The position numbers and the translations under genes were made by a program. 64,000 nucleotides of DNA, from the NCBI RefSeq assembly GCF_900187265.1, contig NZ_LT906450.1:3153444-3217443 (forward strand), given 5' to 3'. The notes below the pieces were generated by a model. That model was not told the origin of the DNA. It made no database searches and worked only from the letters and a program-made list of their open reading frames with translations. Shown piece after piece: positions 43,454 to 60,339 of this stretch. This DNA is from Rhodococcus rhodochrous. GTDB lineage: Bacteria; Actinomycetota; Actinomycetes; Mycobacteriales; Mycobacteriaceae. The stretch's first letter is position 1; each line of letters opens with the position of its first letter.

Positions 43454-43455
43454 GG

Positions 43456-44535: not shown

Positions 44536-46073
44536 CGGGCGTCCTCCGTCCCCACAGCAGCGTCGTTGTCTCCGGCACCGGGATCGTCCGCGAGGACGGC
44601 CTCGGCGACGGTCCACAGTCCCACGGACTGCGATGCCTTCACGAGCACGATGTCGCCCGGTTGCAGTTCGTCGCGCAACAACGCGATCGCGGCGTCGGCA
44701 TCGGGTACGTGGCTCGCTTCCTCACCCCACGATCCTTCCATCACGGCGCCCTGGAACAGACCCCGGACCGGCCGGGTGGCACCGACGGCGATGATGCGGG
44801 TGACGTCGAGGCGCACGGCGAGACGTCCGATGGCGTCGTGGGCGACGACGGCGTCGTCCCCGAGCTCGGCCATCTCCCCCAGCACCGCGAAGGTGCGCCG
44901 GCGATCCGGACCGGACCGCGCCATGGTGACCAGGGCCTTCACGGCTGCGCGCATGGAATCGGGATTGGCGTTGTAGGCGTCGTCGATGACGGTCACCCCG
45001 TCGGATCGGGTCTGCACCGCCATGCGGTGCGCCGAGACGGGACCCGCCGTCGCGAGCGCCTCGGCGGCCTGCTCGACCGTCGCACCGCATTCCACGGCGA
45101 CGGCGATCGCCGACAGGGCGTTGCCGATCTGGTGTTCGCCGTGCACGGCCAGGCGCACCGGCACGCGCCGCTCCTGTCCGTCGGCCCCGGGGACAACGGC
45201 GGTGAAGGACGCACGCGCCTGATCGTCGAGGTGGATGTCCTCGGCGCGATAGGCGGCACCGGACCCGGTCCCGACGGTCACCACGCGACCGGTGGTGCGC
45301 GTCGCCATCTTCGACACGAGGGTGTCGTCGGCGTTGAGGATCGCCACTCCCCCGTCGGCGGCGCTGGGCAGCGCCTCGACGAGTTCGCCCTTCGTCTTGG
45401 CGATGACCTCCTGCGAACCGAACTCGCCGAGGTGGGCGGTACCGACGTTGAGCACGACACCGATCCGCGGCGGGGCGATGCGGGTCAGGGTCGCGATGTG
45501 CCCGGGGCCCCGCGCCGACTTCTCGAGGACGAGGAACCGGGTGGATTCGGTGGCGCGCAGCGCGGTCCAGGGGTGGCCGAGTTCGTTGTTGAACGAGCCG
45601 GGCGGTGCGACGACCTGCCCGAGCGGTGCGAGCACGGCGGCGATCATGTCCTTCGTGGACGTCTTGCCCGCCGAACCGGTGACACCGACGACGGTGAGGC
45701 CGGCGTCGGTGAGCGTGTCCACCACGGTGCGGGCGAGCTTCGCGAGGCCGGCGAGCACGGCCGCGCCGGATCCGTCGCTGTCGTGTTCGAGCGCGAGGGC
45801 GTTGGTCTCGGTCGGCGGGATCGGCGGCACCACGATGGCGGGCACACCCACCGGCCGTGCGGCCAGGACAGCGACCGCACCGGCGGCGACGGCGGCCGCG
45901 GCGTGATCGTGCCCGTCCGAGCGCGCACCGGGCAGCGCCAGGAACAGGCCGCCGGGACCGATCCGTCGCGAGTCGAACTCGACGGAACCGGTCACCTCGG
46001 CGGACGGATCGTCGACGTCGTGCAGGGTGCCCCCGACGACCTCCGCGATCCGAGCCAGTGTCATCGGGATCAT
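44532..46073 (-). CDS. murF: UDP-MurNAc-tripeptide D-Ala-D-Ala ligase MurF
   Basis: Adds D-Ala-D-Ala, 513 aa. [15 protein letters not shown]-terminus, [23 protein letters not shown] loop [38 protein letters not shown] and [13 protein letters not shown]. The ATG overlaps the murE stop (ATGA). A slightly internal ATG at 46064 is also possible. Confidence 0.96.
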
Positions 46074-47815
46074 GCCTTGCCTCCGTGATGCGAACCGCCC
46101 GCAGCAGGCGGATGGTCACCGTCGGGTCCTGCGGTCCGGTACTTGTCGAGAGCTGCACCGAGGACCTCGCGGTCGTCGAAGGGGTGCTTCACTCCGTCGA
46201 TCTCCTGCCCCGTCTCGTGGCCCTTGCCGGCGACGAGGACGACGTCGCCCGGGCGGGCCCACGCGACCGCGGCGTCGATCGCCGCGGCGCGGTCGCCGAT
46301 CTCGAGGATCTCGCCACGTTCGGCCGGCGGCACGGAGTGCGCACCGTCGAGGACGGCCGCGCGGATGGCGGCGGGGTTCTCGGTTCGTGGGTTGTCGTCG
46401 GTCACGACCACCAGATCGGCGGCTCGCGCCGCGACCTCGCCCATGATCGGCCGCTTCGTCCGGTCGCGGTCGCCGCCCGCACCGACGACGACGGCGACGC
46501 GTCCCTCGGTCGCGGCGCGCAGGGTTCCGATGACCGCTTCGAGCGCCGCGGGCTTGTGGGCGTAGTCGACGACGGCGAGGAAGTCCTGTCCGCGCTCGAC
46601 CCGTTCGACCCGGCCGGGCACCGCGACATCGGCGATACCGCGGATCGCGGCGTCGATGTCGGCGCCCACCTCGGCGCAGAGCGCCACGGCGAGGGCGGCG
46701 TTGGTGACGTTGTAGCGGCCCGGCAGGCCGACGGTGGCGCGGCGGGCGATCCCGTCCGGACCGGTCAGGGTGAACTGCTGCACGCCCGTCTCTTCGGGGA
46801 CGTCGTCGGTGACCGTCCAGTCGGCACCGGCGGCACCGACGCCACCTGCGGCACCGACGCCACCGGCGTCACCTGCGGCACTGTCGTCACCTGTGGCACT
46901 GTCGCCACCTGTGGTGACCGTGCGGACTGCGGTCGCGTCGTCGCGGCCGGCGCGAGCGACCTCGGCCATGCGGCGTCCCCACGCGTCGTCGGTGCACACC
47001 ACCGCGCGCTGGGCCCGGACCGGCGAGTCCTCGGCGAACAGCCGGGCCTTCGCGCCGAAGTAGTCGTCGAGGTCCTTGTGGAAGTCGAGATGGTCCTGGG
47101 ACAGGTTGGTGAACCCGCCGACGGCGAACTCGGTGGCGTCCACGCGACCGAGCGCGAGGGCGTGGCTGGAGACCTCCATCACGACCGTGTCGACACCGCG
47201 TTCGCGCATGACGGCGAACAGTGCGTGCAGCTGCGGCGCCTCGGGGGTCGTGAGGGTGCTCGGCACGCGGATCCCCTCGATCCGGGTCTCCACCGTGCCG
47301 ACGAGACCCACGACGCGTCCGGCCGCGACCAGGCCGGCCTCGACGAGATAGGAGGTCGTGGTCTTACCGGACGTGCCCGTGATGCCGATGACCTGCATGC
47401 TCCGGGAGGGGTGTCCGTAGACGGTGGCCGACGCCGCCCCCAGCGCGGCACGCGGCTCGGGATGGACGAGGACCGCGACCGGATCCGAGGTGGCCTCGGC
47501 GACGAGATCGCGACCGGCCTCGTCGGTCAGCACGGCGACCGCTCCGCGCTCGAGCGCGGTGCCCGCGAAGGAGGCGCCGTGGGCGCGCGCGCCGGGCAGC
47601 GCGGCGAAGACGTCGCCGGGGCGGATGCCCTGGGCGCGCAGGTCGATGCCGGTGACCGCGGCCGCACGGGCCGCATCATCTCCGGCGGCTGCATTGACGA
47701 TCTCGACGCGCGCCCCGATGGCGTCGGCGAGAACCGAGATCTGCGTCATCGGTGGGTGCTCGGGTCTCCGCCCCTCCTCCGGAGGAGCCGGATCCGGACT
47801 CGATGGCACAGGCAC
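46070..47815 (-). CDS. murE: UDP-MurNAc-dipeptide meso-DAP ligase MurE
   Basis: Adds meso-diaminopimelate, 581 aa. IGITGTSGKTTTSYLVEAGL, MEVSSHALALGRV, NLSQDHLDFH and the DAP-selecting DDNPRTENP are present. GTG 47815 was chosen for the AGAGGA site five bases upstream; ATG 47854 and ATG 47749 (MTQISVLAD) are alternatives. An in-frame 18-bp repeat tract codes a Gly/Ala/Asp/Thr-rich surface loop. A 140-bp gap to ftsI is the largest break among the mur genes and may hold a promoter. Confidence 0.95.
   Translation of the reverse strand: MPVPSSPDPAPPEEGRRPEHPPMTQISVLADAIGARVEIVNAAAGDDAARAAAVTGIDLRAQGIRPGDVFAALPGARAHGASFAGTALERGAVAVLTDEAGRDLVAEATSDPVAVLVHPEPRAALGAASATVYGHPSRSMQVIGITGTSGKTTTSYLVEAGLVAAGRVVGLVGTVETRIEGIRVPSTLTTPEAPQLHALFAVMRERGVDTVVMEVSSHALALGRVDATEFAVGGFTNLSQDHLDFHKDLDDYFGAKARLFAEDSPVRAQRAVVCTDDAWGRRMAEVARAGRDDATAVRTVTTGGDSATGDDSAAGDAGGVGAAGGVGAAGADWTVTDDVPEETGVQQFTLTGPDGIARRATVGLPGRYNVTNAALAVALCAEVGADIDAAIRGIADVAVPGRVERVERGQDFLAVVDYAHKPAALEAVIGTLRAATEGRVAVVVGAGGDRDRTKRPIMGEVAARAADLVVVTDDNPRTENPAAIRAAVLDGAHSVPPAERGEILEIGDRAAAIDAAVAWARPGDVVLVAGKGHETGQEIDGVKHPFDDREVLGAALDKYRTAGPDGDHPPAAGGSHHGGKA
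46841..46915. repeat. 18-bp tandem repeats inside murE
   Basis: Units of the type GCCACCTGCGGCACCGAC start at 46841, 46868 and 46886, with a 9-base partial at 46859 and a 12-base partial at 46904. They encode GDS/GAA-type loops without shifting the frame. Confidence 0.8.
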
Positions 47816-47955
47816 CAGTTTCCTCTCGCTTCGCTGCAGCTCGTCTGCAGGCACTCCGACGGATGTTCCCGGGTTCGTTCCCGATGCGGTCTCGGCGACG
47901 ATCGTCGTGTCACGTTACCGACGTGTCAGCCTACCGAGGCGCCACGGTCACCTCG
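47816..47955 (-). promoter_or_regulatory. ftsI-murE gap, possible murE promoter
   Basis: The 140-bp gap has no gene. On the minus strand TAGGCT and TAACGT are possible -10 boxes, TGACACG occurs twice 16 bases apart, and the 12-bp palindrome CGACGATCGTCG is present. A second promoter within the mur operon is plausible but unproven. Confidence 0.35.
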
Positions 47956-49863
47956 TCAGTCGACCTGGAGGATCAACTTGCTCTCCGGTTCGGCCGACAG
48001 CGGCACGCCGTCGCGCTGCAGCAACCACGACGCGATGTTGCGGAACAGCGGCGCGGCCGATTGGCCACCGCTGCCGTCGGAGCTGCGGGTCGGGGCGTCG
48101 AGCATGATGCCCACGACGTAGCGCGGATCGTCGGACGGCGCGATGCCGGCGAAGGTGATCCAGTAGTCGGAGTTCGAGTAGCACTTGCAGTTCTGGTCGA
48201 TCTGCTGGGCGGTGCCCGTCTTGCCCGAGATCTGATAGCCCTCGATGGCGGCGCCCGCGCCGGTGCCCTGCTGGTTGCCGGTATCGGACTGGACGACGGA
48301 GCGGAACATGTCGCGCACCGTCGCGGCGGTCTGCGGGCTCACCACCCGCACCGGATCGGGGCGGGGCGTCTCGGTGCGTGTGCCGTCCGGCGCGACGGTG
48401 GCCCGCACGACCCGCGGCGGGACACGCTCGCCGTCGTTCGCGATGGTCTGGTAGATCGCAGTCATCTGCAGCAGCGTCATCGACAGACCCTGGCCGATGG
48501 GAAGGTTCGCGAAGGTGCCACCCGACCACTGCTCCCGGCTGGGCAGCAGACCCGCCGACTCGCCGGGCAGGCCGACATCGGTGCGCTGACCGAGACCGAA
48601 CAGTCGCAGCATCTCGGCGAAGCGGTCCTCACCGATCCGCTCCGCGAGCATGAGCGTGCCGACGTTCGACGACTTCCCGAACACACCCGTCGTGGTGTAC
48701 GGCACGACCCCGTGATCCCAGGCGTCCTTGACGGTCGCGCCGGCCATGGTGATCGTGCCGGGGACCTGCAGAACCTCGTCGGGGCGGGTCAGACCGTCCT
48801 CGATCGCCGCGGCCGCAGTGATGATCTTGTTCACGGATCCGGGCTCGAACGGCGAACTGACCGCGAGATTGCCCTGTTCGGCGTCGGGCGGGTTGTTCGC
48901 GACACCGATCGACGGGTCGAAGGTGCTGTCGTTCGACATGGCGAGCACTTCGCCGGTGTGCGCGTCGAGCACCACGGCGGAGGCGTTCTTCGCCCCGGAC
49001 AGGTCCTTGGCGCGCTGCACCTCCTGCTGCACGTGGTACTGCAGGTCGTTGTCGATCGTGAGCTCGACGGAGGAACCGTCGACGGCGGGCTGGCGGTCGC
49101 GCCAGCTGCCCGGGATGACGGCGCCGTCGGACCCGCGGTCGTAGGTGGACGACCCGTCGGTACCCGCCAGCACGGCGTCCATCGACGCTTCGAGCCCGAT
49201 CAGGCCGTGTCCGTCCCAGCCGGTCGCGCCGACGAGATTGGCGGCGAGCGATCCGCCCGGATACAGACGGATGTCCTGGCGTTCGGTGCCGACCTTGTCG
49301 TACTCGTCGACGATCTCCGCCGCGACGCCGGGATCGACACCGCGAGCGAGGTACACGAAGGTCTCGTCGCTCTCGAGCATCTCGAGCACGTCCTTCTCGG
49401 GCGCCGCAGCGCCGAGCGCGTCGTGGATCGCCGACGCGACGCCCTCGAGATATTCCGAGACCTCGGGCCGGGACGGATCCTTGGCGCGTTCCTCCTCGAG
49501 TTCCTTGCGCACCCGCACGGGTTGGAAGGTCAGTGCCTTCGCCTCCATGGTGTAGGCGAGTGGTTCGCCGTTGCGATCGGCGATGGTGCCGCGGGTCGCG
49601 GGTTCGACGAGTCGGGTGGTGCGCTGGCTGGCCGCCTCGGCGGACAGGGTCGGGGCCTGGACGAGCTGCACGGACAGCAACTGCGCGACGGCTACGCCCA
49701 GAGCGCCGAACATGCCGATCCGGCCCCATTTGTTGCGAAAGGTGAAACTCGTCCGGTCGCGGTGCTTGCGATCGCGCGGCGCGGGCATTCGAGCCCGCCC
49801 GCCGCGCGTCGCAGGGGTGGAACGTCGCTGCGGTGCACGCCGGGGGGTGGAGCGGTTGTTCAC
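47956..49863 (-). CDS. ftsI: Septal transpeptidase FtsI (PBP3/PbpB)
   Basis: Class B penicillin-binding protein, 635 aa. A basic N-terminus, one helix (IGMFGALGVAVAQLLSVQLVQ, about 48-68), a dimerisation domain from TRGTIADRNGEPLAYT, and the transpeptidase domain with SxxK in FEPGSVNK (about 355), SxN in GKSSNVG (about 408) and KTGTAQ (about 560). GTG 49863 overlaps the FtsL-like gene's stop. It cross-links septal wall with FtsW. Confidence 0.96.
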   Translation of the reverse strand: MNNRSTPRRAPQRRSTPATRGGRARMPAPRDRKHRDRTSFTFRNKWGRIGMFGALGVAVAQLLSVQLVQAPTLSAEAASQRTTRLVEPATRGTIADRNGEPLAYTMEAKALTFQPVRVRKELEEERAKDPSRPEVSEYLEGVASAIHDALGAAAPEKDVLEMLESDETFVYLARGVDPGVAAEIVDEYDKVGTERQDIRLYPGGSLAANLVGATGWDGHGLIGLEASMDAVLAGTDGSSTYDRGSDGAVIPGSWRDRQPAVDGSSVELTIDNDLQYHVQQEVQRAKDLSGAKNASAVVLDAHTGEVLAMSNDSTFDPSIGVANNPPDAEQGNLAVSSPFEPGSVNKIITAAAAIEDGLTRPDEVLQVPGTITMAGATVKDAWDHGVVPYTTTGVFGKSSNVGTLMLAERIGEDRFAEMLRLFGLGQRTDVGLPGESAGLLPSREQWSGGTFANLPIGQGLSMTLLQMTAIYQTIANDGERVPPRVVRATVAPDGTRTETPRPDPVRVVSPQTAATVRDMFRSVVQSDTGNQQGTGAGAAIEGYQISGKTGTAQQIDQNCKCYSNSDYWITFAGIAPSDDPRYVVGIMLDAPTRSSDGSGGQSAAPLFRNIASWLLQRDGVPLSAEPESKLILQVD

Positions 49864-50708
49864 CGAGGCCCACCCTCGGGTTCCGTCGGCACGGCCTGGA
49901 CAGGTGCTTCGGGCGCCGCCTCACGGGGCGCCTCGGATTGCGGCAGCTCGCTCACGGGTACCGATTGTCCCGCCGCGGGCGGAACAGGTGCGGCACCCTC
50001 GACGTCCGGCGTGGCGCCCGCAGGAGCCTCCGCCACGGACGCGGGCACGGGAGCCGGTGCCGGATCCTCGCCCACAGGGCGGCCGTCGGACGACGGCGCC
50101 GCCCGGCGCGCGTCCTCGGTGTCGGTGCGCGGCCGGGGTCCCTCGCTCACGTCACCGAGCGGCCGCGGTGTCTCCGCCCCGGCACTGCCGGCCAGCGGGG
50201 TCTGGACGCGGGCGTCCTCCCGGGCCGGCGGATCCAGCGGGGCCGGCGGGGCGCCCTGAGCCGGAACCGGATCGCCCACCACCTGCACCGAACCGTCCGG
50301 AGCGACGACGATCCGCGCGACCTGCCCGGTAGGAATCATGCCCAGCTCCGCCGCGGCGACGGCGAGCGCGGGAGCCGATTCGGCCGTGGCGACGTCGCGC
50401 TGGAGCACCGCGCGCTTCTGGGCGAGTTCCTCGTTGAGGGAACGCGCCGCGCTCAGCTCGTAGGAATCCTCGGTCGCCCGGGTGGTCAGCAGCAGCGTCA
50501 CGGCCATGCCCACGCCCAGGAGCCCGATGATGGTGGCGACGAACGGGATCCGGGTGCGGACACGTCCGGCACCCGTCGTGCGCCCGCGGGTCTCGACCTG
50601 CTCGACCCCGAGCTGTGCTGCGCGCTGCGACCGTCGCTGATAGGCACGCTGCGCTGCGGTCGATCGCCCCGGGTTCCGGCGCTGCGGGGGTGCCACCTGT
50701 ACGGTCAT
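49860..50708 (-). CDS. ftsL: FtsL-like divisome protein
   Basis: A 282-aa bitopic protein in the ftsL position. Basic N-terminus, one helix (IPFVATIIGLLGVGMAVTLLL, about 54-74), a short coiled coil (YELSAARSLNEELAQKRAVLQRDVATAES) and AAAELGMIPTGQVARIVV, which is the FtsL pattern. The last about 140 residues are a disordered Pro/Ala/Glu tail, far longer than FtsL of other phyla but typical for actinobacteria (Rv2164c). It lies between rsmH (3 bp away) and ftsI. Confidence 0.85.
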   Translation of the reverse strand: MTVQVAPPQRRNPGRSTAAQRAYQRRSQRAAQLGVEQVETRGRTTGAGRVRTRIPFVATIIGLLGVGMAVTLLLTTRATEDSYELSAARSLNEELAQKRAVLQRDVATAESAPALAVAAAELGMIPTGQVARIVVAPDGSVQVVGDPVPAQGAPPAPLDPPAREDARVQTPLAGSAGAETPRPLGDVSEGPRPRTDTEDARRAAPSSDGRPVGEDPAPAPVPASVAEAPAGATPDVEGAAPVPPAAGQSVPVSELPQSEAPREAAPEAPVQAVPTEPEGGPR

Positions 50709-50711
50709 CGG

Positions 50712-51752
50712 TTACCTCCTGGCGATTCGTTCTGCAGCACGCAGGCGGACGGGCGCCGAACGTGGGTTGGCCTCGATCTCGTCGTCCGTCGCCCGCTCCG
50801 CACCGCGGGTGAGGATGCGCAGCTCCGGTCCCATCCCGGGCAGTTCGACCGGAAGCCCTTCGGGACTGCGGGACTTCGCTCGCGGGGTCAGTTCCTGCTT
50901 GACGACCTTGTCCTCGAGCGACTGGTAGGACATGAAGACGATCCGGCCACCCACCGCGAGAGCATCGATAGCGTCCGGTATCGCGTTGCGCAACGAGTCG
51001 AGCTCCGCATTCACCTCGACCCGCAGCGCCTGGAAGGTGCGCTTGGCCGGGTGACCACCGGTACGGCGGGTCGCAGCAGGGATCGTGCGGTACAGCAGTT
51101 CGACGAGTTCGCCGCTCGTCCGGAACGGGGCCTTGGCCCGGGTCCGGACGATCTCGGAGGCGATCCTGCCGGCGAAACGCTCCTCGCCGTAGGTGCTCAG
51201 GATGCGGGCGAGGTCGCCGTGGCTGTAGGTGTTGAGGACGTCGGCCGCGGTGATGCCGGTGGTGGGATCCATCCGCATGTCGAGCGGTGCGTCCTTGGAA
51301 TAGGCGAAGCCGCGCTCCGCCTCGTCGAGCTGCATCGAGGACACGCCGAGATCGAACAGGGCGGCATGGACCGAGCCGTGCCGGTCGAGGCCGACACTCT
51401 CGAGTGCATCGGCGATCCCGTCGTAGCGGGTGTGGACGAAGTCGGTGCGATCGGAGAACCGTGCGAGTCGCTCGCGGGCGATCGCCAGTGCGTCGGGATC
51501 GCGGTCGAGGCCGACGAGCCGCAGCTTGGGGTAGATCGTCAGGAAGTGTTCGGAGTGCCCACCGAGACCGAGGGTCGCGTCGACGTAGACCGCGCCCTCG
51601 CCGTCGGGAGCGACGCTCTCGATGGCCGGGCCGAGCAGGTCGACGGCCCGCTGGAGCATGACAGGCACGTGGCCGAACTCCACCGCAGATGCCACATCGG
51701 CACCGGTGGCCTCATCCGTACCATCGACGGATTCGTGCTCGCCGTCCACCAT
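50712..51752 (-). CDS. rsmH: 16S rRNA m4C1402 methyltransferase RsmH (MraW)
   Basis: SAM-dependent N4-methyltransferase for C1402, 346 aa. [61 protein letters not shown] and the [18 protein letters not shown] block. ATG 51752 has GGAGGAC five bases upstream, so the open frame further upstream (which would translate the RNA hairpins) is not used. The leader carries two mraW-type RNA hairpins. Confidence 0.96.
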
Positions 51753-51922
51753 GTGTCCTCCGGAATCCTGCTCGGGCCGCTTACGGTCTGTGGGGTACTC
51801 GTCGGGTGGACGGTGGTGTGCCTCGTGCCTGCCTGTCGCTCGTCTCGATACCGTGCTCGCCGCCACGGGGTGGATACGGAAGACGGCGAATGCCTCGAGG
51901 TCTCTGTCCGAGTCCGAAGAGA

Positions 51923-51987
51923 CCTGACGCCGGGGAAGTGCGTCAGGGCCCTTCGGTCCGTACCTGGCGCTGGGGAAGTGCGTCAGG
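51923..51987 (-). ncRNA. Tandem mraW RNA motif hairpins
   Basis: In the minus-strand leader of rsmH two hairpins follow each other. Upstream copy (51963-51987): arms CCTGACGC and GCGCCAGG with loop ACTTCCCCA. Downstream copy (51923-51947): arms CCTGACGC and GCGTCAGG, perfect 8 bp, with loop ACTTCCCCG. Both loops hold CUUCCCC, the conserved loop of the actinobacterial mraW RNA motif found upstream of mraW. A 19-base identity is repeated at 40-base spacing. The second copy keeps pairing where the first has an A/C mismatch. Confidence 0.8.
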
Positions 51988-52041
51988 GCCGGCACATCGG
52001 GCAGAGGCCTCGCGGCACTCGCCGCGCAGCCCGAGCCGTGG

Positions 52042-52473
52042 TTACAAGATGTCGCGTAGTGCTTCGTCTCTCGCTTCCGAGAAGTCTTCTTCGTGCTCGG
52101 CGAGGTAGCTCTCCCATGCCGTCGCGTCCCAGATCTCGAGGTACCTGACCGAACCGATCACCACGCAGTCCTTGGTGAGACCGGCGTACTTGCGGTGGGC
52201 CGACGACAGCGTGATCCGGCCTTGTGAGTCGGGTCGCTGCTCCTCCGTTCCCGACGCGAGGCTCCGCAGGAACGCACGTGCCTGAGGGTTGCTCCGTGAG
52301 GCACTCGCAGCGCGTTCGGCCAGAGCGGCGAACTCGTCACGAGGGAACACGGTGAGGCTGTGATCCTGTCCCTTCGTGATCATCAACCCTCCCGCCAGCT
52401 CGTCTCGGTACTTCGCCGGCAGCGTGAGCCGGCCCTTGTCGTCCAACTTCGGGGTGTAGGTACCGAGGAACAC
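52042..52473 (-). CDS. mraZ: Transcriptional regulator MraZ
   Basis: A 143-aa DNA-binding repressor of the dcw cluster. Two SpoVT/AbrB-like halves each carry the family motif: [17 protein letters not shown] (about 8-24) and [18 protein letters not shown] (about 82-99). GTG 52473 gives the exact family length ([15 protein letters not shown]). Four phased boxes 51-86 bases upstream are its expected own operator. It begins the cluster that runs to wag31. Confidence 0.96.
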
Positions 52474-52523
52474 TCGGCGCCTCCCCGCTGCCGGACGGAT
52501 GCTTCGCGCGACAGGACACCTTG

Positions 52524-52559
52524 TCCCGCCGCGCCCCACATTACCCCACTTTGCCCCAC
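52524..52559 (-). promoter_or_regulatory. MraZ boxes (four phased repeats)
   Basis: On the minus strand GTGGGG occurs at 52554-52559, 52544-52549 and 52534-52539, followed by the weaker GCGGGA at 52524-52529, all with exact 10-bp spacing. This matches the TGGGN repeats bound by MraZ in other bacteria. A TAATGT -10-like hexamer lies among them, so binding would block the dcw promoter. Confidence 0.85.
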
Positions 52560-52850
52560 CGGAAACGGATTACCGCCGCCCGGTCACGCGTGTTGTCGTC
52601 ACATTCCCAGCTCAGAGTGGGTGGCGAAAAATGGGGACACACCCTCTCGTGACTACGGCGGATCCACCGACGTCGGCGCCCCGACGATCCGCCCCACCGG
52701 CGGAGCGAGGTTCGAGCGATGGGCGACCAGGGGAAACACTGCGCCCGGGGCCGGGGTGGGAGGCAGTGGGGGGACGGGGAACGCGCGAGTGGGGCGCGGT
52801 GGTGGAGCGACAGGAGGGATGGAGGGAGGTCGCTGGGCAGGCCGACGGAG
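52560..52850. other. G-rich intergenic region upstream of mraZ
   Basis: No gene is seen. The plus strand is strongly G-rich from about 52727; runs at 52747-52750, 52753-52756, 52758-52760 and 52768-52773 with loops of 2, 1 and 7 meet the usual G-quadruplex pattern. The part next to mraZ is AT-richer and probably holds upstream promoter sequence. Confidence 0.45.
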
Positions 52851-52853
52851 AAA

Positions 52854-52890
52854 CGACGACGGCGCGACCCGTTGGGTCGCGCCGTCGTCG
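52854..52890 (-). terminator. Terminator of the DUF3040 gene
   Basis: CGACGACGGCGCGACCC and GGGTCGCGCCGTCGTCG are perfect 17-bp arms around GTT, 22 bases after the DUF3040 stop. It insulates mraZ from upstream transcription. Confidence 0.85.
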
Positions 52891-52912
52891 ATACACCTGA
52901 TGGTCGAGGAGG

Positions 52913-53332
52913 TCAGTCCTGCTCGAAACGCCTCCGGAACCGCTCTTCCATGCGGTTGGTGAAGCCACCACCCGAGGACTTCTTGCCGCCGCGGGAACTT
53001 CGACCGGTCTTTCCGCAACCGGAACTACCGCCCGTCGCCCCTGGAGTCGACGGCCGACGACCGCCGAGGAGCAACAGGACTCCGGCGGCGAACATCACGA
53101 GGAACCCGAGCAGACTGATGATCGGGAAGCCGCCCGGCTTGAGCGGCAGGGCAACGCCGGCGATCAACAGCGTCAGGCCCAACACGAACAAGGCGCCGGC
53201 CTGTAGCCGCCGCCGGTTCGACGCCATCCCCAACCGGCTGCCACGCACGGTCGAGGCGAACTTGGGATCCTCAGCATAGAGCGCGCTCTCGATTTGATCG
53301 AGCATGCGCTGCTCGTGCTCGGAGAGTGGCAC
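52913..53332 (-). CDS. DUF3040 domain membrane protein
   Basis: A 139-aa protein. The N-terminal MPLSEHEQRMLDQIESALYAEDPKFAST is the DUF3040 hallmark; two helices (ALFVLGLTLLIAGVALPL and IISLLGFLVMFAAGVLLLL) and a basic Gly/Ser/Lys tail follow. GGGGGAGG precedes the GTG. It matches Rv2169c next to mraZ in M. tuberculosis. Function unknown; the location suggests a cell-envelope role. Confidence 0.88.
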   Translation of the reverse strand: MPLSEHEQRMLDQIESALYAEDPKFASTVRGSRLGMASNRRRLQAGALFVLGLTLLIAGVALPLKPGGFPIISLLGFLVMFAAGVLLLLGGRRPSTPGATGGSSGCGKTGRSSRGGKKSSGGGFTNRMEERFRRRFEQD

Positions 53333-53505
53333 GGTACCTCCCCCGGCACTAAACGGTGGCCACCGGATCCGTGGGGCGAATCCGGCGGGGGGCCGTCCGT
53401 ACGGCCGCCTGAGTCAATAATACGAGCAGATGTCGCTGTGGACCACAAACTCCACACGTGAGTTCGATCCCCTCTTCGGCGAAGACCCTCGTGAGGGGGC
53501 GAAAG
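53333..53505 (-). promoter_or_regulatory. Region upstream of the DUF3040 gene
   Basis: This 173-bp stretch has no gene. Minus-strand TATTAT (53417-53422) is a good -10 box, giving a leader of roughly 80 bases. GGCCGT-ccgt-ACGGCC (53391-53406) forms an inverted repeat just downstream of it. Confidence 0.4.
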
Positions 53506-53991
53506 TCACCCACCGACACCGACCTCCGGCTCTGCTTCGGCGTCGAGATAGCCCTCCACATCGTGCAGGAAGTGACCCACCTCGTCGTAGAACGCCCCGG
53601 ATTCGTCGGCGCCCACCGCATGCACTACCCCCGCCTCGACTGCGGCGCGGGTGGCTGAGCGATCGGCGAAGTAGTCGGCCCAGACGGCGAAGGACTCGTC
53701 GGCGCGCGCCATGAGCGCCCACGCGTTGCGCGTGGCGGGCCGGCGGGGGCGGATCCCGGAACGCAGCTCCGCGGCGGCGACCACCGCGCCCGCGCCGCGC
53801 AGCGCCGCCAGATAGGCGAGGCGGAACCGCTCGCCAGGATCGCCGGCACCGGCGGCACCCGAGAGCAGATCGTCGGCCTTGCGCAGCAGCGTCGCCGCGC
53901 GCGCCGAGGTGGCATGGTCGATGCATGCGGACGGCCCGAGCGTGGGAGACGTTCGGCGCGGGCCTCGACTCGCGACCTGACCGTTGGCCAT
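53506..53991 (-). CDS. SAV_6107-type HEPN domain protein
   Basis: A 161-aa, mostly helical protein. SARAATLLRKADDLLSGAAGAGDPGERFRLAYLAALRGAGAVVAAAE and RNAWALMARADESFAVWADYFADRSATRAAVEAG match the SAV_6107 HEPN family of actinobacteria. The catalytic RxxxxxH of HEPN RNases is not obvious, so RNase activity is doubtful. ATG 53991 has GGAGG nine bases upstream; GTG 53997 is possible. It is divergent from the GNAT gene. Confidence 0.8.
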   Translation of the reverse strand: MANGQVASRGPRRTSPTLGPSACIDHATSARAATLLRKADDLLSGAAGAGDPGERFRLAYLAALRGAGAVVAAAELRSGIRPRRPATRNAWALMARADESFAVWADYFADRSATRAAVEAGVVHAVGADESGAFYDEVGHFLHDVEGYLDAEAEPEVGVGG

Positions 53992-54313
53992 GTTCACGCA
54001 CCTCCTCGGCGTGGTCTCACCACTCGTTACGACGAGCGGTATCCGGTGGCATTCCCGCCGAAACGCCGAGGAACGGAGATCACTGTCCTCGAGTGAGGCC
54101 GACACGGACGCCGAGCGGGAGACCCCAGGGTGATCCGGGGATGTTCGCTTCCCTCGAACATCCCCGGATCACCGGTGTCGAACATGCGTTCGACGTATTC
54201 AATATAGCTGGACCCACCGACAACCCGTCAAGAGAAAGTGGCCACGTCATCCCGAACGATCAGCGAGACCCGAGCACCTCCGACGCAGCGCGAGCCACCC
54301 GAACGAGTCACGC
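53992..54313 (+). promoter_or_regulatory. Divergent intergenic region with 19-bp hairpin and operator-like repeats
   Basis: Non-coding, 322 bp. GGTGATCCGGGGATGTTCG (54129-54147) pairs perfectly with CGAACATCCCCGGATCACC (54155-54173) around seven bases. Directly after it GTCGAAC-atgc-GTTCGAC (54177-54194) is another perfect repeat, so CGAACAT occurs twice as a direct repeat 24 bases apart and once inverted. TATAGC (54203-54208) in an AT-rich patch is a -10 candidate for the GNAT-carotenoid operon. No gene ends here, so the hairpin is not a simple terminator. Confidence 0.6.
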
Positions 54314-54961
54314 ATGACCACCGATCCCCGCCAGGACGCCCCGATCCTCACCGAGCTCTCCCCCGCGGACTTCCGTGCGCGCCTGCCCGAGCTGCTGGCC
54401 GTCTACGTCGCGGCGATGCGGTATCCCCGCGGCACGGAGTACCACCGCGCGCCGATGTGGTCCGAGCATTCGGCCCGCGAGGGATGGCAGGCGTTCGCTG
54501 CGAGTCTCCCCGACGATCCGGACACCGCCGTCGGGATCGCGTACGGCTACCGGGGCGACACCCGCCAGTGGTGGAACCAGCAGGTGCGCGCCGGGATGCG
54601 CCATTCCGGACGGTCCCCCGAGGAGATCGATCGCATCCTCTCCGACTACTTCGAGCTCACCGAACTGCACGTCCGCCCCGACATGCAGGGACGCCGCATC
54701 GGTGAACTGCTCCTGTCGGCGCTGCTGCGGGAACGCACCGAAGCGGCCGTACTGCTGTCGACACCCGAAGTGCCGGGCGAGGACAACCGGGCGTGGCGGC
54801 TGTACCGTCGGTTCGGATTCCAGGACGTCGTCCGCCGGTTCGTCTTCACCGGCGACGCCCGCCCGTTCGCGGTCCTCGGCAGGAGCCTGCCTCTGGAGCC
54901 GGACCTCGTTCCGTACCACCATCACACGATCGACGATCCGGACGGAAGCGGTACCCCATGA
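54314..54961 (+). CDS. GNAT family N-acetyltransferase
   Basis: A 215-aa acetyltransferase. The acetyl-CoA loop is LTELHVRPDMQGRRIGELLLSALL (V-RPDxQGRRIG, about 115-138), followed by YRRFGFQDVVRRFVFTGDARPFAVLGR. The N-terminal MRYPRGTEYHRAPMWSEHS is specific to the actinobacterial relatives of M. tuberculosis Rv2170, a protein acetyltransferase. ATG 54314; its stop overlaps the crtO-like start (ATGA), so it leads the carotenoid operon. Confidence 0.88.
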   Translation: MTTDPRQDAPILTELSPADFRARLPELLAVYVAAMRYPRGTEYHRAPMWSEHSAREGWQAFAASLPDDPDTAVGIAYGYRGDTRQWWNQQVRAGMRHSGRSPEEIDRILSDYFELTELHVRPDMQGRRIGELLLSALLRERTEAAVLLSTPEVPGEDNRAWRLYRRFGFQDVVRRFVFTGDARPFAVLGRSLPLEPDLVPYHHHTIDDPDGSGTP

Positions 54962-56553
54962 ACTCCACACTCGACGTCGTCGTCGTCGGCTCGGGCCACA
55001 ACGCCCTGGTCTCGGCGTGTTATCTCGCCCGCGACGGATGGTCGGTGGAGGTCCTCGAACGCGACACCGTGCCGGGCGGCGCCGTCTCCACCGTCGAACG
55101 GTTCCCCGGATACGCCGTCGACCGCGGTTCCTCGGCGCACATCATGGTGCGCCACTCCGGGATCGTCGAGGAACTCGATCTCGCTGCCCACGGCCTGCGC
55201 TACATCGACTGCGACCCGTGGGCATACGCGCCGCCGCCGACGGACTCCGACCGCCCCGGCATCGTCTTCCACCGCGATCTCGACCGGACCTGCGCCTCCG
55301 TCGAAGCAGCCTGCGGACGCCGCGAGGCCGACGCGTACCGCCGCTTCGTGCAGGACTGGGGTCCGCGCAGCGCCGCGGTGATGAAGTCGTTCACCCACCC
55401 CCCGACCGGCCGGCACCTGCTGTCCTCGTTCTGGGGACTCGACGCCGGGGAGGGCGGCAGCGCCCTGTCCCGCCGGTTCCTCACCACCGGCGACAGCCTG
55501 CTCGACGAGTACTTCGACGACGAACCCCTCAAGGCGGCACTCGCCTGGTTCGGCGCGCAGTCCGGCCCGCCCATGTCCGAGCCCGGCACCGCCGCGATGG
55601 TGGGCTTCGCGGCCCTCATGCACACCCTGCCCCCGGGGCGCGCGATCGGCGGGAGCGGCGCGCTCACCCAGGCCCTGCTGTCGCGGCTGCGGTCCGACGG
55701 CGGCACGGTGACCTGCGGCGACGCCGCCACCGAGATCCGCCGGACCGGCGATGTGTGGACCGTGCGCACCGAATCGGGACGCTCCCTGCGGGCCCGGAGG
55801 GTCGTCGCCGGATGCCACGTACTGACCACGCTGGATCTGCTCGACCGCGGCGGATACGACCGCGACCGGCTCGAGCGCTGGCGCCGCAGCATGCGGGTCG
55901 GCCCCGGTATCGGCATGGTCCTGCGGCTCGGCACCGACTCGCTGCCCCGCTACCGCGGCTGCGACGAGCCCGAACTGACGACCGCCGGCCTGCAACTGCT
56001 CGTCGACGACCGCGCCCACCTGCGCGCCGCGCACGGTGCGGCGATGGCGGGAGACCTGCCCCCGCGACCGGCCGTCCTCGCGATGAGCTTCTCCGCCCTC
56101 GACCCAACGATCGCACCCGACGGCAAGCACCAGATCACCCTGTGGTCCCAGTGGCATCCGTACGCGCTGCGCGACGGGCGTCGCTGGGAGGACATCGCCG
56201 GCGCCGAGACCGACCGCATCCTCGCCGAGATGGAGACGCGCTCTCCCGGATTCACCGCAAGCGTGGAGCACTGCCACGTGCAGACCCCCGCGGACATCGA
56301 GAGCGAACTCGGCCTGCTCGGCGGGAACGTCATGCACGTGGAGATGTCGCTGGACCAGATGTTCCTGTGGCGCCCGCTGCCGGAACTGTCCGGCTATCGG
56401 GTGCCCGACGCGCCCGGCCTCTATCTCACCGGCGCCTCGACCCATCCCGGCGGTGGAGTCTCCGGTGCGAGCGGCCGCAACGCCGCCCGGGTCGCCCTCG
56501 CCGACGCCAAGGGAACTCTCGTGGACCGCGTGAAGGGCTGGGTGTCGCGGTGA
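54958..56553 (+). CDS. crtO: CrtO-type carotenoid ketolase
   Basis: FAD-dependent carotenoid 4-ketolase of the phytoene-desaturase-like family, 531 aa. The FAD motif VVVVGSGHNALVSACYLARDGWSVEVLERDTVPGGAVST, PGYAVDRGSSAHIMVRHSGIVEELDL, LAWFGAQSGPPMSEP, GGNVMHVEMSLDQMFLWRP and LYLTGASTHPGGGVSGASGRNAA follow CrtO of Deinococcus and Rhodococcus closely, with the GHNALV signature that separates CrtO from CrtI. It would make 4-keto carotenoids. ATG overlaps the GNAT stop; the cruF-like gene overlaps its stop. Confidence 0.85.
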   Translation: MNSTLDVVVVGSGHNALVSACYLARDGWSVEVLERDTVPGGAVSTVERFPGYAVDRGSSAHIMVRHSGIVEELDLAAHGLRYIDCDPWAYAPPPTDSDRPGIVFHRDLDRTCASVEAACGRREADAYRRFVQDWGPRSAAVMKSFTHPPTGRHLLSSFWGLDAGEGGSALSRRFLTTGDSLLDEYFDDEPLKAALAWFGAQSGPPMSEPGTAAMVGFAALMHTLPPGRAIGGSGALTQALLSRLRSDGGTVTCGDAATEIRRTGDVWTVRTESGRSLRARRVVAGCHVLTTLDLLDRGGYDRDRLERWRRSMRVGPGIGMVLRLGTDSLPRYRGCDEPELTTAGLQLLVDDRAHLRAAHGAAMAGDLPPRPAVLAMSFSALDPTIAPDGKHQITLWSQWHPYALRDGRRWEDIAGAETDRILAEMETRSPGFTASVEHCHVQTPADIESELGLLGGNVMHVEMSLDQMFLWRPLPELSGYRVPDAPGLYLTGASTHPGGGVSGASGRNAARVALADAKGTLVDRVKGWVSR

Positions 56554-57428
56554 CCGACACCCGCGTCCCCGCACCGCCCCGACCGGCCCGCTGGCAGACG
56601 ATCCTTCCGATCGTCCCGGCCGTCGCCGCGGTCCTGGCCCAGATCGCCTACCCCCTCACCGAGGGTGGCGCCCGGGACGCCGCGACCGTCGCGGTCGTCA
56701 CGCTGCTCACCGCCGCATGTCTCGTCCACGCCGCGCTGAACCGCGGCCTCACCTTCGCCGTCGTCCTGATCGTCAGCTCGGTGGGCATCGGATATCTGTC
56801 CGAGGTGGTCGGCACGACGACCGGCTATCCCTACGGCTGCTACAGCTATGTCACCGATCGGCTCGGACCGGCCGCCTTCGACGTCCCGCTGGTGGTGCCG
56901 CTGGCGTGGTCGGCGGGTCTGTACCCCGTCTGGTGCGTGGCCTCCCGCCTCGTCCGCAACGGTCCCGGCCGGGTCGCGGCGGTCACCGTCGGCATGCTGG
57001 GCTGGGATCTGTATCTCGACCCCCAGATGGTGGCGGACGGGCACTGGTCGTGGTGCAACGCCGGCGGACTGCCCGGGATCGAGCACATCCCACTCACCAA
57101 CTACGCGGGCTGGCTTCTCGTCGCCGCGATCATGGCGACCGTGCTCGTGCTCGTCGACTCCCGTTCGGATCGCACCGACACGTCCCGGCACGACGCCGTG
57201 CCCGTCGTACTGTTCCTGTGGACGTGGCTCGGTTCGGCGCTCGCCCACAGTGTCTTCCTCGACGCTCCCGAACTCCGCTACTCCGCGGTGTACGGACTGG
57301 TCGTCATGGGGGTACTGGGTGTTCCCCTGCTGTTCTCGCTCGTCCGGTCGTGGCGCGGAAGCAAGCCCGGTCCCGGGCGGGACGAGACACGACTCGCCGC
57401 GAGCGACCCGAACAACCGACGAGGATGA
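56550..57428 (+). CDS. cruF: CruF-like carotenoid 1',2'-hydratase (DUF422 membrane protein)
   Basis: A 292-aa membrane protein with seven or eight helices of the carotenoid-synthesis family PF04240. Conserved acidic and polar blocks are visible: GYLSEVVGTTTGYPYGCYSY, WDLYLDPQMVADGHWSWCNAGG and PLTNYAGW. CruF adds water to the 1',2' double bond of monocyclic or acyclic carotenoids, giving the hydroxyl that CruC can glycosylate. GTG overlaps the crtO stop and the lppM ATG overlaps its own stop. The reaction is inferred from family and context. Confidence 0.8.
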   Translation: MTDTRVPAPPRPARWQTILPIVPAVAAVLAQIAYPLTEGGARDAATVAVVTLLTAACLVHAALNRGLTFAVVLIVSSVGIGYLSEVVGTTTGYPYGCYSYVTDRLGPAAFDVPLVVPLAWSAGLYPVWCVASRLVRNGPGRVAAVTVGMLGWDLYLDPQMVADGHWSWCNAGGLPGIEHIPLTNYAGWLLVAAIMATVLVLVDSRSDRTDTSRHDAVPVVLFLWTWLGSALAHSVFLDAPELRYSAVYGLVVMGVLGVPLLFSLVRSWRGSKPGPGRDETRLAASDPNNRRG

Positions 57429-58147
57429 CCGTGCCTGGCACCATGTTCTCCGTGCAGTCGTCCATCCTGTCCGTCCGCCGTCGTGTCGTCGCGGTCGTGG
57501 GGCTCGTGCTCCTCGGCCTCCCGCTCCTCACCGGCTGCCTGCGTGTGCAGGCGACGATGGGGATCTCCTCCGATGACCGTGTGTCGGGGCAGATCGTCGC
57601 CGCGACCATCCCCGCCGACGAGAACGATCCCGGTCCCGAACTCACCCCTCCCTCGGCCCTGGCCGGCAAGGTGCGGGTGCAGGAGTACTCGCAGGACGGC
57701 TACGTCGGGAGCCAGGTCTTCTTCAACGACCTCACCTTCGGCGACGTCCAGCAGCTCGCCACGATGTCCGACCAGAGCGCCGGCATGTTCCAGCTCAACC
57801 TGCAGCGCTCGGGCGACCTGGTCGCCCTGAACGGACGCGTCGATCTCGAGTCCGCTCCCACCCAGGGCACCGACGTGCAGTTCACCATCGCATTCCCCGC
57901 CCGGGTGGCGACCACCAACGGCACCCGCGAGTCGGATTCGGTCGTGACCTGGAAGCTTCCGGCCGGTGAGGTGAGCACCCTCCGCGCGGAGGTGCGCTAC
58001 GCCGATCCCAACACGCGCGGTTTCGCGGGCTGGGCCGGAATCATGGCCGGCGGCGCCTTCGGTGTCACGCTGATCATCGCCGGCGCGGCCTGGTTCACCC
58101 GCAATCCCACGCCGCAGTGGTCGTCGGCGAACGGGACGCGGTCCTGA
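57425..58147 (+). CDS. lppM: Lipoprotein LppM
   Basis: A 240-aa lipoprotein. Signal VVAVVGLVLLGLPLLTGC (cysteine near 38), a beta-rich domain from RVQATMGISSDDRVSGQIV, and a C-terminal helix AGIMAGGAFGVTLIIAGAAWF. It matches LppM (Rv2171) of mycobacteria, linked to phosphatidylinositol mannosides and phagosome traffic in pathogens. In this genome it sits inside a run of carotenoid genes and is translationally coupled to cruF. ATG 57425 overlaps the cruF stop. Confidence 0.88.
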   Translation: MTVPGTMFSVQSSILSVRRRVVAVVGLVLLGLPLLTGCLRVQATMGISSDDRVSGQIVAATIPADENDPGPELTPPSALAGKVRVQEYSQDGYVGSQVFFNDLTFGDVQQLATMSDQSAGMFQLNLQRSGDLVALNGRVDLESAPTQGTDVQFTIAFPARVATTNGTRESDSVVTWKLPAGEVSTLRAEVRYADPNTRGFAGWAGIMAGGAFGVTLIIAGAAWFTRNPTPQWSSANGTRS

Positions 58148-59334
58148 CCCCCCTGCCGCGCGACCTGTCCCCCGGTCTCGCGCGGCTCGTCGCCGGTGGT
58201 GCTCTCGTCGCCTCCTACGGTGCGGCCGTCGCCGTCGCGAACCGCGTCGCGCTCCCTTGTCTCGTTCCGGGACCGGTGGTCGACGAGCAGGTCACCGTCG
58301 TCGTGCCGGCCCGTGACGAAGCTCCTCGCATCGGTGCGATCGTCTCCGATCTGCGCGCACAGAGAGGCCTGCGCGCCCTGCGCGTGGTGATCCTCGACGA
58401 CGACTCGTCCGACGGCACCTGCGATCTGGCCACGGCCGCGGCCGCGGACGACGAGCGCATCACCGTCGTCCGATCGACCCAGCCACCTCCCGAAGGATGG
58501 ACCGGGAAGGCAGCGGCGTGTGCCGCAGCCGTCGCCCACGCCGGGCCGGCAGCCGACAGCGGCGTCGTGGTCTTCGTCGACGCGGACGTCCGGCTCACGC
58601 CCGACGCACTCTCCGCCGCCATCGCTCTGCTGCGCCGCCAGGATGCCGCGCTCGTCTCGCCGTTCCCGTACCAGCTCACCGGGTCGGCGCTCGAACGGCT
58701 CGTGCAGCCACTGCTGTTCTGGTCGTGGTTCTCGCTGCTGCCCGTCGCGGTCTCGCACCGCACCCACCGGCCGTCGATGGCGGTGGCGTGCGGGCAGTTC
58801 CTCGTCTTCGACGCGCACGCCTACGGGGCGATCGGCGGGCACGCCGCGGTCGCGGCGAGTCCCACGGAGGATCTGGATCTGGCCCGGGCACTACGTCGCG
58901 CCGGACGACGTACGACGGTCGCGGCCGCGGGCGGGCTGTCGTCGTGCCGGATGTACGACGGGCCCCGCCCGTTGATCGGCGGATACACCCGCTGGCTGTG
59001 GTCGGCGTTCGGCTCCCCCGCCGGCGCGGCCGCGGTGGTCGCGCTGTATCTCCTCGCCTACCTCCTGCCCCCGGCAGCGGCGCTTCTCGGCGAGGGCCGG
59101 ACACGACGCTGGGGTCTGGTCGGAACCGCCGCGGGCATGGCGTCACGACTCCTCGCCCGCGTCACCGAACGGGGAGGACGCACACACCCGGATGCTCCGG
59201 ACCGTCCCGCCGACGACCTGCTCGAGGCCGTGGCACACCCGGCATCGGTCCTGGCCTTCGGCGCGCTCACGGCGTCGTCGATCCGGGCCCGGCGCAGCGG
59301 ACGCGCGGCATGGAAGGCCCGCGTCCTGCCCTGA
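58117..59334 (+). CDS. CruC-like GT2 glycosyltransferase
   Basis: A 405-aa membrane glycosyltransferase. An N-terminal helix (LVAGGALVASYGAAVAVA), the GT-A domain with VTVVVPARDEAPRIGAIVSDL, VILDDDSSDGTCDLA, VVFVDADVRLTPDAL and PTEDLDLARALRRAGRR, and C-terminal helices (AVVALYLLAYLLPPAAALL). It resembles CruC, which attaches glucose to the hydroxyl made by CruF. GTG 58117 overlaps lppM by 31 bases; a later start is possible. Convergent with the MTHFR gene. Confidence 0.78.
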   Translation: MVVGERDAVLTPLPRDLSPGLARLVAGGALVASYGAAVAVANRVALPCLVPGPVVDEQVTVVVPARDEAPRIGAIVSDLRAQRGLRALRVVILDDDSSDGTCDLATAAAADDERITVVRSTQPPPEGWTGKAAACAAAVAHAGPAADSGVVVFVDADVRLTPDALSAAIALLRRQDAALVSPFPYQLTGSALERLVQPLLFWSWFSLLPVAVSHRTHRPSMAVACGQFLVFDAHAYGAIGGHAAVAASPTEDLDLARALRRAGRRTTVAAAGGLSSCRMYDGPRPLIGGYTRWLWSAFGSPAGAAAVVALYLLAYLLPPAAALLGEGRTRRWGLVGTAAGMASRLLARVTERGGRTHPDAPDRPADDLLEAVAHPASVLAFGALTASSIRARRSGRAAWKARVLP

Positions 59335-59355
59335 CCCCGAACCGGGGCACGGATG

Positions 59356-60339
59356 TCAGGCCGGCTGCACCGCGGCGGGAGCTTCGAGTTCGTAGCCGAG
59401 GCGGTCGAGCACCTCGCCGGTCGCGCGGGCGAAGTTCAGCGTGATGAAGTGCAGGCACGGCGCGCCCTCGGAGATCAGCCGCTCGCACATCTCCGTGGCC
59501 ACCTCGATGCCCACCTCGCGCACGGCGGCGCGGTTCTCCTCCGGGCCGTCGCCCGCCGCGCGCCGCAGCCGCTCCTCGAGCACGGGCGGCAGGTGCGAAC
59601 CCGACAGTTCGAGGCTGCGCCGCGCCGAGCGCAGCGACGTGATCGGCATGATCTCGGGGATGATCGGCTTGAGCCCCTGCTCGGCGTCGCACGCCACGAC
59701 CCGGTCGCGCAGACGCAGGTAGTGCTCGACGTCGAAGAACATCTGGGTGATCGAGTACTCGGCGCCCGCACGCAGCTTCTGCACGAGATAGCGGGTGTCG
59801 TGGTCGAGGTCCGGGGACCGGTGGTGTCCTTCCGGGAACGATGCGACGCCCACGTGGAAGTCGCCGAGATCGCGCACCAGACGTACGAGTTCGTCGGCGT
59901 ATTCGAGACCCTCCGGGTGCTTCTCCCACTCGCCGAGGGGGTTGCCCGGCGGGTCGCCGCGCAGGGCGAGGATGTTGGTGATGCCGCGGTCGGCATAGGC
60001 ACCGACCATCGCGCGCAGTTCGTCGATGCTGTGCCCGACGGCCGTGAGGTGCGCGACCGGCAGGAGGGTGGTCTCCTCGGCGAGACGTCCGGTGATCCGG
60101 ACCGTACGGTCGCGGGTGGATCCCCCGGCGCCGTAGGTCATCGATACGAAGGCCGGACCGAGGCGTTCGAACGTCCGCACGGCACGCCACAGTCGTCCCT
60201 CGGCCTCGGCATCGCGAGGTGGGGAGAACTCGACGGAGAACGGAATGCGGCCCGAACGCGCGGATCCGAGACGGTCCACGATCGACGGGGTCCGAGAAAT
60301 CCCGTCGTCCTCGGTTGCCCTGACGAAGTCGCTTGTCAC
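59356..60339 (-). CDS. Methylenetetrahydrofolate reductase family protein
   Basis: A 327-aa barrel enzyme making 5-methyl-THF for methionine. PFSVEFSPPRDAEAEGRLWRAV, FVSMTYGAGGSTRDRT, HLTAVGHSIDELRAMV, ITNILALRGDPPGN, YSITQMFFDVEHYLRLRDR and PEIMPITS are MTHFR blocks. It matches Rv2172c of M. tuberculosis, in the same position between lppM and idsA2. GTG 60339 has a TATGCT -10 box six bases upstream. It is the only minus-strand gene in this stretch. Confidence 0.92.
   Translation of the reverse strand: MTSDFVRATEDDGISRTPSIVDRLGSARSGRIPFSVEFSPPRDAEAEGRLWRAVRTFERLGPAFVSMTYGAGGSTRDRTVRITGRLAEETTLLPVAHLTAVGHSIDELRAMVGAYADRGITNILALRGDPPGNPLGEWEKHPEGLEYADELVRLVRDLGDFHVGVASFPEGHHRSPDLDHDTRYLVQKLRAGAEYSITQMFFDVEHYLRLRDRVVACDAEQGLKPIIPEIMPITSLRSARRSLELSGSHLPPVLEERLRRAAGDGPEENRAAVREVGIEVATEMCERLISEGAPCLHFITLNFARATGEVLDRLGYELEAPAAVQPA

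Follow-up and report, generated by a model that had tools for sequence, protein, structure and literature searches.

We found that the gap between mraZ and rsmH (also called mraW) of Rhodococcus rhodochrous carries, on the minus strand, one mraW RNA in which the apical hairpin occurs twice, predicted to form a three-way junction on an outer stem of about 28 bp. The reading we favour, to which we give a probability of roughly 55%, is that a protein reads the CUUCCCC loops in the rsmH leader and that doubling the loop gives stronger binding. The window is the whole stretch of DNA analysed, 64,000 nucleotides in length, and coordinates refer to it. The mraW motif, which precedes the operon for peptidoglycan synthesis and septation, was listed for the Actinomycetales as RF01746 (Weinberg et al. 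2010, PMC2864571; papers are cited throughout for the parts of their text that we consulted), and Rfam gives its type as "Cis-reg". The consulted text of a 2017 paper describes the function of mraW RNA as unknown (PMC5640933). The motif is known, and the variant with a doubled apical hairpin appears to be new: doubled mraW hairpins appear in none of the titles and abstract openings of the literature searched, a search with supplements and subscription papers outside it, and prior notice is possible.

Read directly, the mraZ-rsmH gap contains two CUUCCCC hairpins on the minus strand with 40 nt between their loops, identical in loop and in 5' arm (Table 1). An earlier reading of this DNA (the first-pass annotation) had described such a pair 40 bases apart, with a perfect 8-bp stem downstream and a single A/C mismatch upstream, and its description agrees with the sequence. 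The start of rsmH was placed by its GGAGG site and by alignment of relatives. The longest rsmH ORF starts at GTG 51995 and spans the RNA element (51753-51995, minus), and a comparable over-long start has been reported for Rv2165c of Mycobacterium tuberculosis (PMC3526491). Upstream of mraZ lies a long perfect inverted repeat followed by TTT (CGACGACGGCGCGACCC/GGGTCGCGCCGTCGTCG; 52853-52890, minus), the probable terminator of the gene upstream of mraZ. Also upstream of mraZ are three GTGGGG boxes at 10-bp spacing (GTGGGGCAAAGTGGGGTAATGTGGGG; 52534-52559, minus), which we take to be the layout of MraZ operator repeats.

Table 1. Features of the mraZ-rsmH gap and its flanking genes in the window
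Feature	Position	Strand	Sequence, basis or remark
mraZ, 143 aa, GTG start, upstream neighbour	52042..52473	minus	MraZ search and locus reading
Whole element, mraW RNA (RF01746) with predicted duplicated apical hairpin	51883..52025	minus	Rfam, minimum free energy (MFE) fold, consensus fold
Outer stem, 5' arm, about 28 pairs including mismatches	51994..52025	minus	MFE fold, consensus fold, covariation
Hairpin 1	51987-51963	minus	CCUGACGC-A-CUUCCCC-A-GCGCCAGG
Hairpin 1 loop, CUUCCCC	51978-51972	minus	8-pair stem; A·C is the fifth pair, conserved
Extended hairpin 2	51914..51956	minus	MFE fold; lower stem 51949-51956 with 51914-51921
Hairpin 2	51947-51923	minus	CCUGACGC-A-CUUCCCC-G-GCGUCAGG
Hairpin 2 loop, CUUCCCC	51938-51932	minus	Stem of 8 perfect pairs
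Outer stem, 3' arm	51883..51913	minus	MFE fold, consensus fold, covariation
rsmH/mraW, first gene downstream of the leader	50712..51752	minus	ATG 51752, GGAGG 51757-51761

The segment 52030-51870 folded at -91.8 kcal/mol compared with -62.7 ± 4.6 kcal/mol in 200 shuffles (z -6.4), none of which was as stable, and in the MFE fold one outer stem (52025-51994 with 51913-51883) is common to both hairpins. A cmscan of 40000-60000 returned a single minus-strand match to RF01746 (51878-52026, 47.3 bits, E 2.4e-7), which covers the entire model (1-107) but needs a 41-nt insertion where the apical loop would be. The model pairs the 5' half of hairpin 1 with the 3' half of hairpin 2 and takes the 41 nt between them as that insertion. 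The match falls 2.7 bits below the gathering cut-off of 50 bits. The apical insertion is probably the cause of this deficit, because 8 of the 10 genomes of the family that score below the cut-off have tandem leaders; the other 2 have single ones, and 2 tandem leaders of the same search exceed the cut-off. Further marks of RF01746 present in the window element are its position upstream of mraW/rsmH in a member of the Actinomycetales, covariation in the outer stem and apical hairpin, and the CUUCCCC terminal loop (consensus ACUUCCCC), which occurs two times. Two complete copies of the motif with outer stems of their own were not found; since both hairpins stand on the shared outer stem, they make up one element. 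Identification of the motif as mraW RNA in the first-pass annotation is therefore upheld by the covariance-model scan that it had proposed, albeit with a sub-cut-off score, whereas its description of tandem mraW RNAs gives way to a single mraW RNA with one outer stem capped by two apical hairpins. As for other forms of the element, in L033 and L077 (genus g8) the whole element is one nearly perfect hairpin capped by CUUCCCC, with 38 pairs and one mismatch in the former and 26 consecutive pairs in the latter, and L083 (genus g28) has an additional GC-rich hairpin without CUUCCCC beside two loop hairpins.

Covariation was assessed in an alignment of 39 leaders of Rhodococcus, Rhodococcoides, Prescottella, and Williamsia taken from 50 distinct tandem leaders; those of Microbacteriaceae, L083, and some near-identical rows were omitted, and L180 was too short and was dropped. 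RNAalifold arrived at the three-way junction unaided, with double changes that still pair in 17 of 38 pairs. When the two A·C positions were added, 94.1% of cells were paired and double-sided changes were seen in 18 of 40 pairs; 0 of 500 shuffles equalled the real alignment on these two measures, and slid controls reached at most 40% of cells paired and 6 pairs. By the count of further pair types, 129 of 500 shuffles matched the real alignment. The lower stem of hairpin 2 also covaries (columns 80-82 with 110-112). The two local hairpins taken alone account for 6 pairs with double-sided changes, compared with 1 for an arrangement in which the 5' arm of hairpin 1 pairs with the 3' arm of hairpin 2. 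In a second alignment, of 23 hairpins with unrelated stems among them, all 8 stem pairs showed double-sided changes; the loop columns of these 23 rows are invariant by selection, and the class sample described below is the fair test of loop conservation. Overall, the covariation supports both local hairpins, and the possibility raised in the first-pass annotation that only the primary repeat is kept did not hold: both stems covary and both loops are retained. The A/C that the annotation noted in the upstream stem is present, but it is the commonest state of the fifth pair and not decay: of 101 different hairpins with a C[C/U]UG stem, 59 have A·C here, 30 have G-C, and 12 have A-U, and in the 39 leaders the fifth pair is non-standard, with A against C, in hairpin 1 of 38 and hairpin 2 of 27.

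The cross-pairing implied by the Rfam alignment was rejected for the window, where the local hairpins beat the cross fold by 12.6 kcal/mol. The cross fold was preferred by 0.7-3.8 kcal/mol in 13 of the 39 leaders, mostly of the Rhodococcoides group and not that of the window, and by these predicted energies such leaders may have a second, cross-paired state.

The compensatory changes also bear on whether the element acts as RNA. Corynebacterial data could be taken to favour a DNA-level element, that is, a promoter or transcription-factor site with inverted repeats and no RNA role, in that start sites lie within or just past the motif: the mraW 5' end of Corynebacterium glutamicum at 2,266,932 is inside the Rfam motif at 2,267,021-2,266,916 (PMC3890552), and in C. 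diphtheriae the motif is upstream of the mraW start site (PMC5784534). With 5' ends so placed, part of the mRNA there would be without the full element, which counts against the favoured reading. The consulted texts have the motif transcribed or assigned in corynebacteria (PMC3890552, PMC5784534, PMC4046766), and a small RNA (60 and 30 nt on Northern blots) arises in the leader region of Rv2165c in M. tuberculosis (PMC3526491). A DNA-level element is, in our view, highly improbable given the many compensatory changes, G·U states on the minus strand among them, the RF01746 score of 47.3 bits on the minus strand against 24.4 bits on the plus strand (with a model built for the minus-strand orientation), and a spacing between copies that is not fixed.

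We then determined how widespread the element is and how constant its loop. RF01746 matched all 18 genomes of the genus, none of them over the cut-off, 61 of 61 genomes of the family (51 over the cut-off, at 50-77 bits), and 120 of 150 genomes of the order (79 over). In an early locus set, 4 of 131 loci were without mraZ and rsmH and were dropped. To avoid selection on the motif, the class sample was picked by MraZ: 108 genomes were searched, 97 had MraZ, and 98 places were read, of which 95 had rsmH in view and the 3 others were dropped. CTTCCCC was present in 95 of 95 mraZ-rsmH gaps, in 94 of them on a stem of 6 or more pairs (88 gaps with one hairpin and 6 with two) and in the remaining one as a heptamer without a stem of that length. 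Stems of at least 7 pairs flank 95 of 97 primary loops, compared with 4.2% of positions drawn at random from the same gaps, and they are unrelated in sequence across the class (CCUGAC, CCCCGGGG, CAGCGACG, CCGGAC, and others). Because the stems vary while the loop stays constant, it is the loop and not the stem that is conserved. Even where RF01746 rarely reaches its cut-off (3 of 20 class loci scanned, from the 58 loci L250-L307), the hairpin was found in all 20. Outside the class, CUUCCCC was absent near the end of mraZ in 42 of 42 loci (from 115 non-class genomes with MraZ), against its presence in all 57 of the class loci examined in the same way (drawn from the 98). Within the genus, both loops are invariant in 14 distinct leaders, and in the linker 5 of 16 columns are invariant and 11 vary.

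The first-pass annotation had further proposed a dose-dependent switch operating between mraZ and the remaining genes of the division operon. In the form considered here, its partner would be MraZ or the mraZ message. The element does lie directly past the mraZ stop, with the loop in every one of the 95 class gaps, and a lineage without mraZ has mostly lost the heptamer. This lineage is genus g34 of family f4, a family with large genomes that is probably Streptomycetaceae. For f4, 61 genomes were searched and 30 loci kept, giving 38 leaders with 8 from the earlier set, and 24 f4 genomes of that set were searched for MraZ. In g34, rsmH was found in 8 of 8 genomes and MraZ in 0 of 6 searched, and in 8 of 9 loci the leader element has no heptamer, L309 being the one that keeps it; the element's function would thus be dispensable or altered in the g34 lineage. 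In leaders L308, L310-L315, and L387 of this genus the CUUCCCC loop is lost or altered, with the outer parts of the element recognisable in several, and L311 has one CUUCCCC farther upstream, without a stem. That the loop tracks mraZ, as g34 alone suggested, was ruled out by the wider sampling of f4: all 21 of the other f4 genomes without a MraZ match (5 genera) retain, upstream of rsmH, a hairpin of 7-9 pairs with the CUUCCCC loop. The element is therefore found beyond genomes with mraZ, and its conserved job would be independent of that gene. As a general function the switch is contradicted by these genomes, and we consider it scarcely credible; the element appears instead to go with rsmH. 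Further, of the 30 f4 leaders without mraZ, 23 (8 of 9 in g34 and 15 of 21 in the others) carry a promoter-like sequence, TTGAC-N(15-20)-TA[A/G]AGT, at most 700 bases upstream of rsmH, compared with 0 of the 8 leaders with mraZ, a count made with no shuffled control. A promoter at this place would put the element in the leader of rsmH, and this is probably where it lies in genomes that have lost mraZ.

Constancy of the loop and its retention without mraZ also weigh on what we regard as the main rival explanation, an RNA processing site at which RNase III cuts the long duplex, or RNase E the C-rich loop, to part the mraZ and rsmH mRNAs and give them different stabilities. The outer stem and hairpins do form long duplexes, L033 and L077 being nearly perfect hairpins; the C. 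glutamicum 5' end is inside the motif (PMC3890552), RNase III is reported to cleave the mraZ coding region in that species (Maeda 2016, as cited in PMC8247434), and mycobacterial RNase E favours C-rich regions and cuts 5' of C (PMC10641625). On the other side, CUUCCCC remains constant while the stem sequence turns over, the presence of the element in MraZ-less genomes means that separating mraZ from rsmH is not its conserved job, and the C. glutamicum 5' end was called as a transcription start. To our knowledge, neither RNase III nor RNase E requires an invariant heptamer. Processing is thus unlikely, although it deserves to be taken seriously.

A further explanation for a constant C-rich loop is that it pairs in cis, as an anti-Shine-Dalgarno sequence, with the ribosome-binding site of rsmH or mraZ. 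The mraZ site of the window, GGGGAGG, would be a 7-nt partner with one G·U, the same sequence is given for M. tuberculosis Rv2165c (PMC3526491), and GGGAGG precedes mraZ (66 of 97 with GGAGG) somewhat more often than it does ORFs generally (82 of 178). However, most mraZ genes have no GGGGARG upstream, and the loop persists where mraZ is gone. Downstream complementarity was counted in the 89 of 97 class gaps that were long enough: at least 6 pairs were available to CUUCCCC in 33 of 89, which places it 10th (tied) of 21 permuted heptamers (range 18-47), and 7 pairs in 13 of 89 (permuted heptamers, 2-20). Pairing of the loop with ribosome sites of mraZ or rsmH is not specific by this comparison, and such a role is very unlikely.

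We next asked where else such hairpins occur. Both hairpins are present in the mraZ-rsmH gap of all 18 Rhodococcus genomes, and a hairpin model gave exactly two strong matches (38-42 bits) in each, all 36 being these hairpins. No other strong copy was found in the 18 genomes by this model, the next best scoring 27.0 bits; a regulon of such hairpins in the genus was accordingly rejected as a candidate for want of a strong second locus. A pattern search of the source genome allowing 3 mismatches found 5 places, two of which are the two hairpins, and the low-scoring off-locus Rfam matches L019, L021, L023, and L024 of the genus search were not mraZ/rsmH loci. Among 246 class genomes, 105 had a hairpin-model match at E 0.01 or better. 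We chose 32 regions to fetch, 30 from this class list and 2 weak matches in the genus; 24 lie at mraZ-rsmH and 8 elsewhere, and 5 of these 8 (L190, L202, L203, L205, and L218) carry a CUUCCCC hairpin of 7-10 pairs, one at 35 bits. The five may be chance occurrences, terminators, or further sites. It is thus for the genus, and not for the class, that a single place is established.

Duplication of the loop hairpin is not peculiar to Rhodococcus. Leaders with two loop hairpins also occur in Rhodococcoides, Prescottella, two Williamsia species, Plantibacter, and another Microbacteriaceae genome, with further cases in L188, L189, and L215, and the four loci of family f84 (L126-L129) have three CUUCCCC hairpins per leader, two of them on stems (CGAGCCG/CGGCUCG type) unrelated to that of the third. 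All 51 matches to a tandem pattern in named genomes adjoin rsmH and/or mraZ (50 have rsmH within 500 bases and 48 the end of mraZ within 300); the pattern demanded both loops and is uninformative on loop loss. A phylum-wide search with the Rhodococcus stem in the tandem pattern found the source genome alone among 296, a pattern that was too narrow because other lineages use other stems. On a FastTree of MraZ and RsmH (161 rows), we counted at least 7 changes between single and multiple hairpins, this being a quick tree on which gain and loss are not distinguished, and each Williamsia tandem groups among single-hairpin relatives. The doubled arrangement seems to have more than one origin among related bacteria. 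In the class, the excess of CUUCCCC over composition-matched heptamers is only moderate: extra copies occur in 14 of 97 gaps compared with 3.4 on average and 10 at most for such heptamers, and 6 extra copies are hairpin-borne compared with at most 4 for a permuted heptamer. In family f4, leaders L360-L375, L381, L382, L384, and L385 have a second CUUCCCC 21-27 nt past the loop and before the outer stem, which in L361 and L367 has its own 8-pair stem by script count.

That the RNA is functional and its second hairpin a neutral slippage duplicate of a palindrome would agree with the near-exact tandem units of Williamsia serinedens L175 (36-nt spacing) and of L189 (58-nt spacing), the spacing between copies varying from 33 to 58 bp overall. 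It agrees poorly with the 14 genus leaders, in which both loops are constant while the linker drifts, and with several species in which the two stems have diverged from each other and each is still paired. We judge neutral duplication to be improbable, if not remotely so.

Our computations thus comprise the predicted structure with its covariation, loop invariance despite stem turnover, and the single place in 18 Rhodococcus genomes, together with retention without mraZ and the recurrence of doubled hairpins. A loop that keeps every letter while its stems change, and that lies in a leader and at a single place in the genus, fits a trans factor that reads sequence; from this we infer such a factor, its protein nature, the added binding by a second copy, and control of the operon. 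In the favoured reading, mraW RNA would act in cis in the leader of the division operon headed by rsmH, with a long outer stem presenting two identical single-stranded CUUCCCC loops. The loops would be the recognition site of a trans factor shared by most of the class Actinomycetes, with an RNA-binding protein the likeliest candidate; its binding would alter the extent to which the transcript is completed or translated, and two loops would raise avidity or shift the threshold of the response. Cooperative or avid binding by two loops would be plausible, and recurrent duplication is consistent with it, short of proof.

More tentatively, and with considerable doubt, one RNA-binding factor may read CUUCCCC across the Actinomycetes, lineages tuning the dose response by one or two extra loop hairpins, some on unrelated stems. 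A bolder sub-case would make RsmH itself the factor, through the likeness of CNNCCC to its 16S rRNA target, which we assume to be around C1402. The question of what mraW RNA responds to is narrowed by these results to a seven-base loop as the putative determinant, independent of mraZ, at one place in each Rhodococcus genome tested, and varied in copy number by nature. The doubled arrangement offers a handle on that question: loop mutants and leaders with one versus two loops would be direct tests, and the loop could serve as bait for the factor.

Comparison with known systems places the element closest to mraW RNA itself (RF01746), whose position upstream of rsmH/mraW, outer stem, apical hairpin, and CUUCCCC loop it shares; it differs in that the apical hairpin is duplicated and in scoring below the cut-off in all 18 genomes of the genus. 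Tandem-aptamer leaders, of which the tandem glycine riboswitch is an example, likewise repeat a recognition module within one leader. Unlike in those leaders, both modules here would stand on one outer stem, in an element known from its sequence and predicted fold. Sites of the CsrA/RsmA type are repeated leader stem-loops bound by a protein through loops with the motif GGA. The element resembles these in displaying a short invariant single-stranded motif in hairpin loops in several copies, and is distinguished from them by CUUCCCC in place of GGA, by its one place per genome in 18 Rhodococcus, and by a protein reader that is putative.
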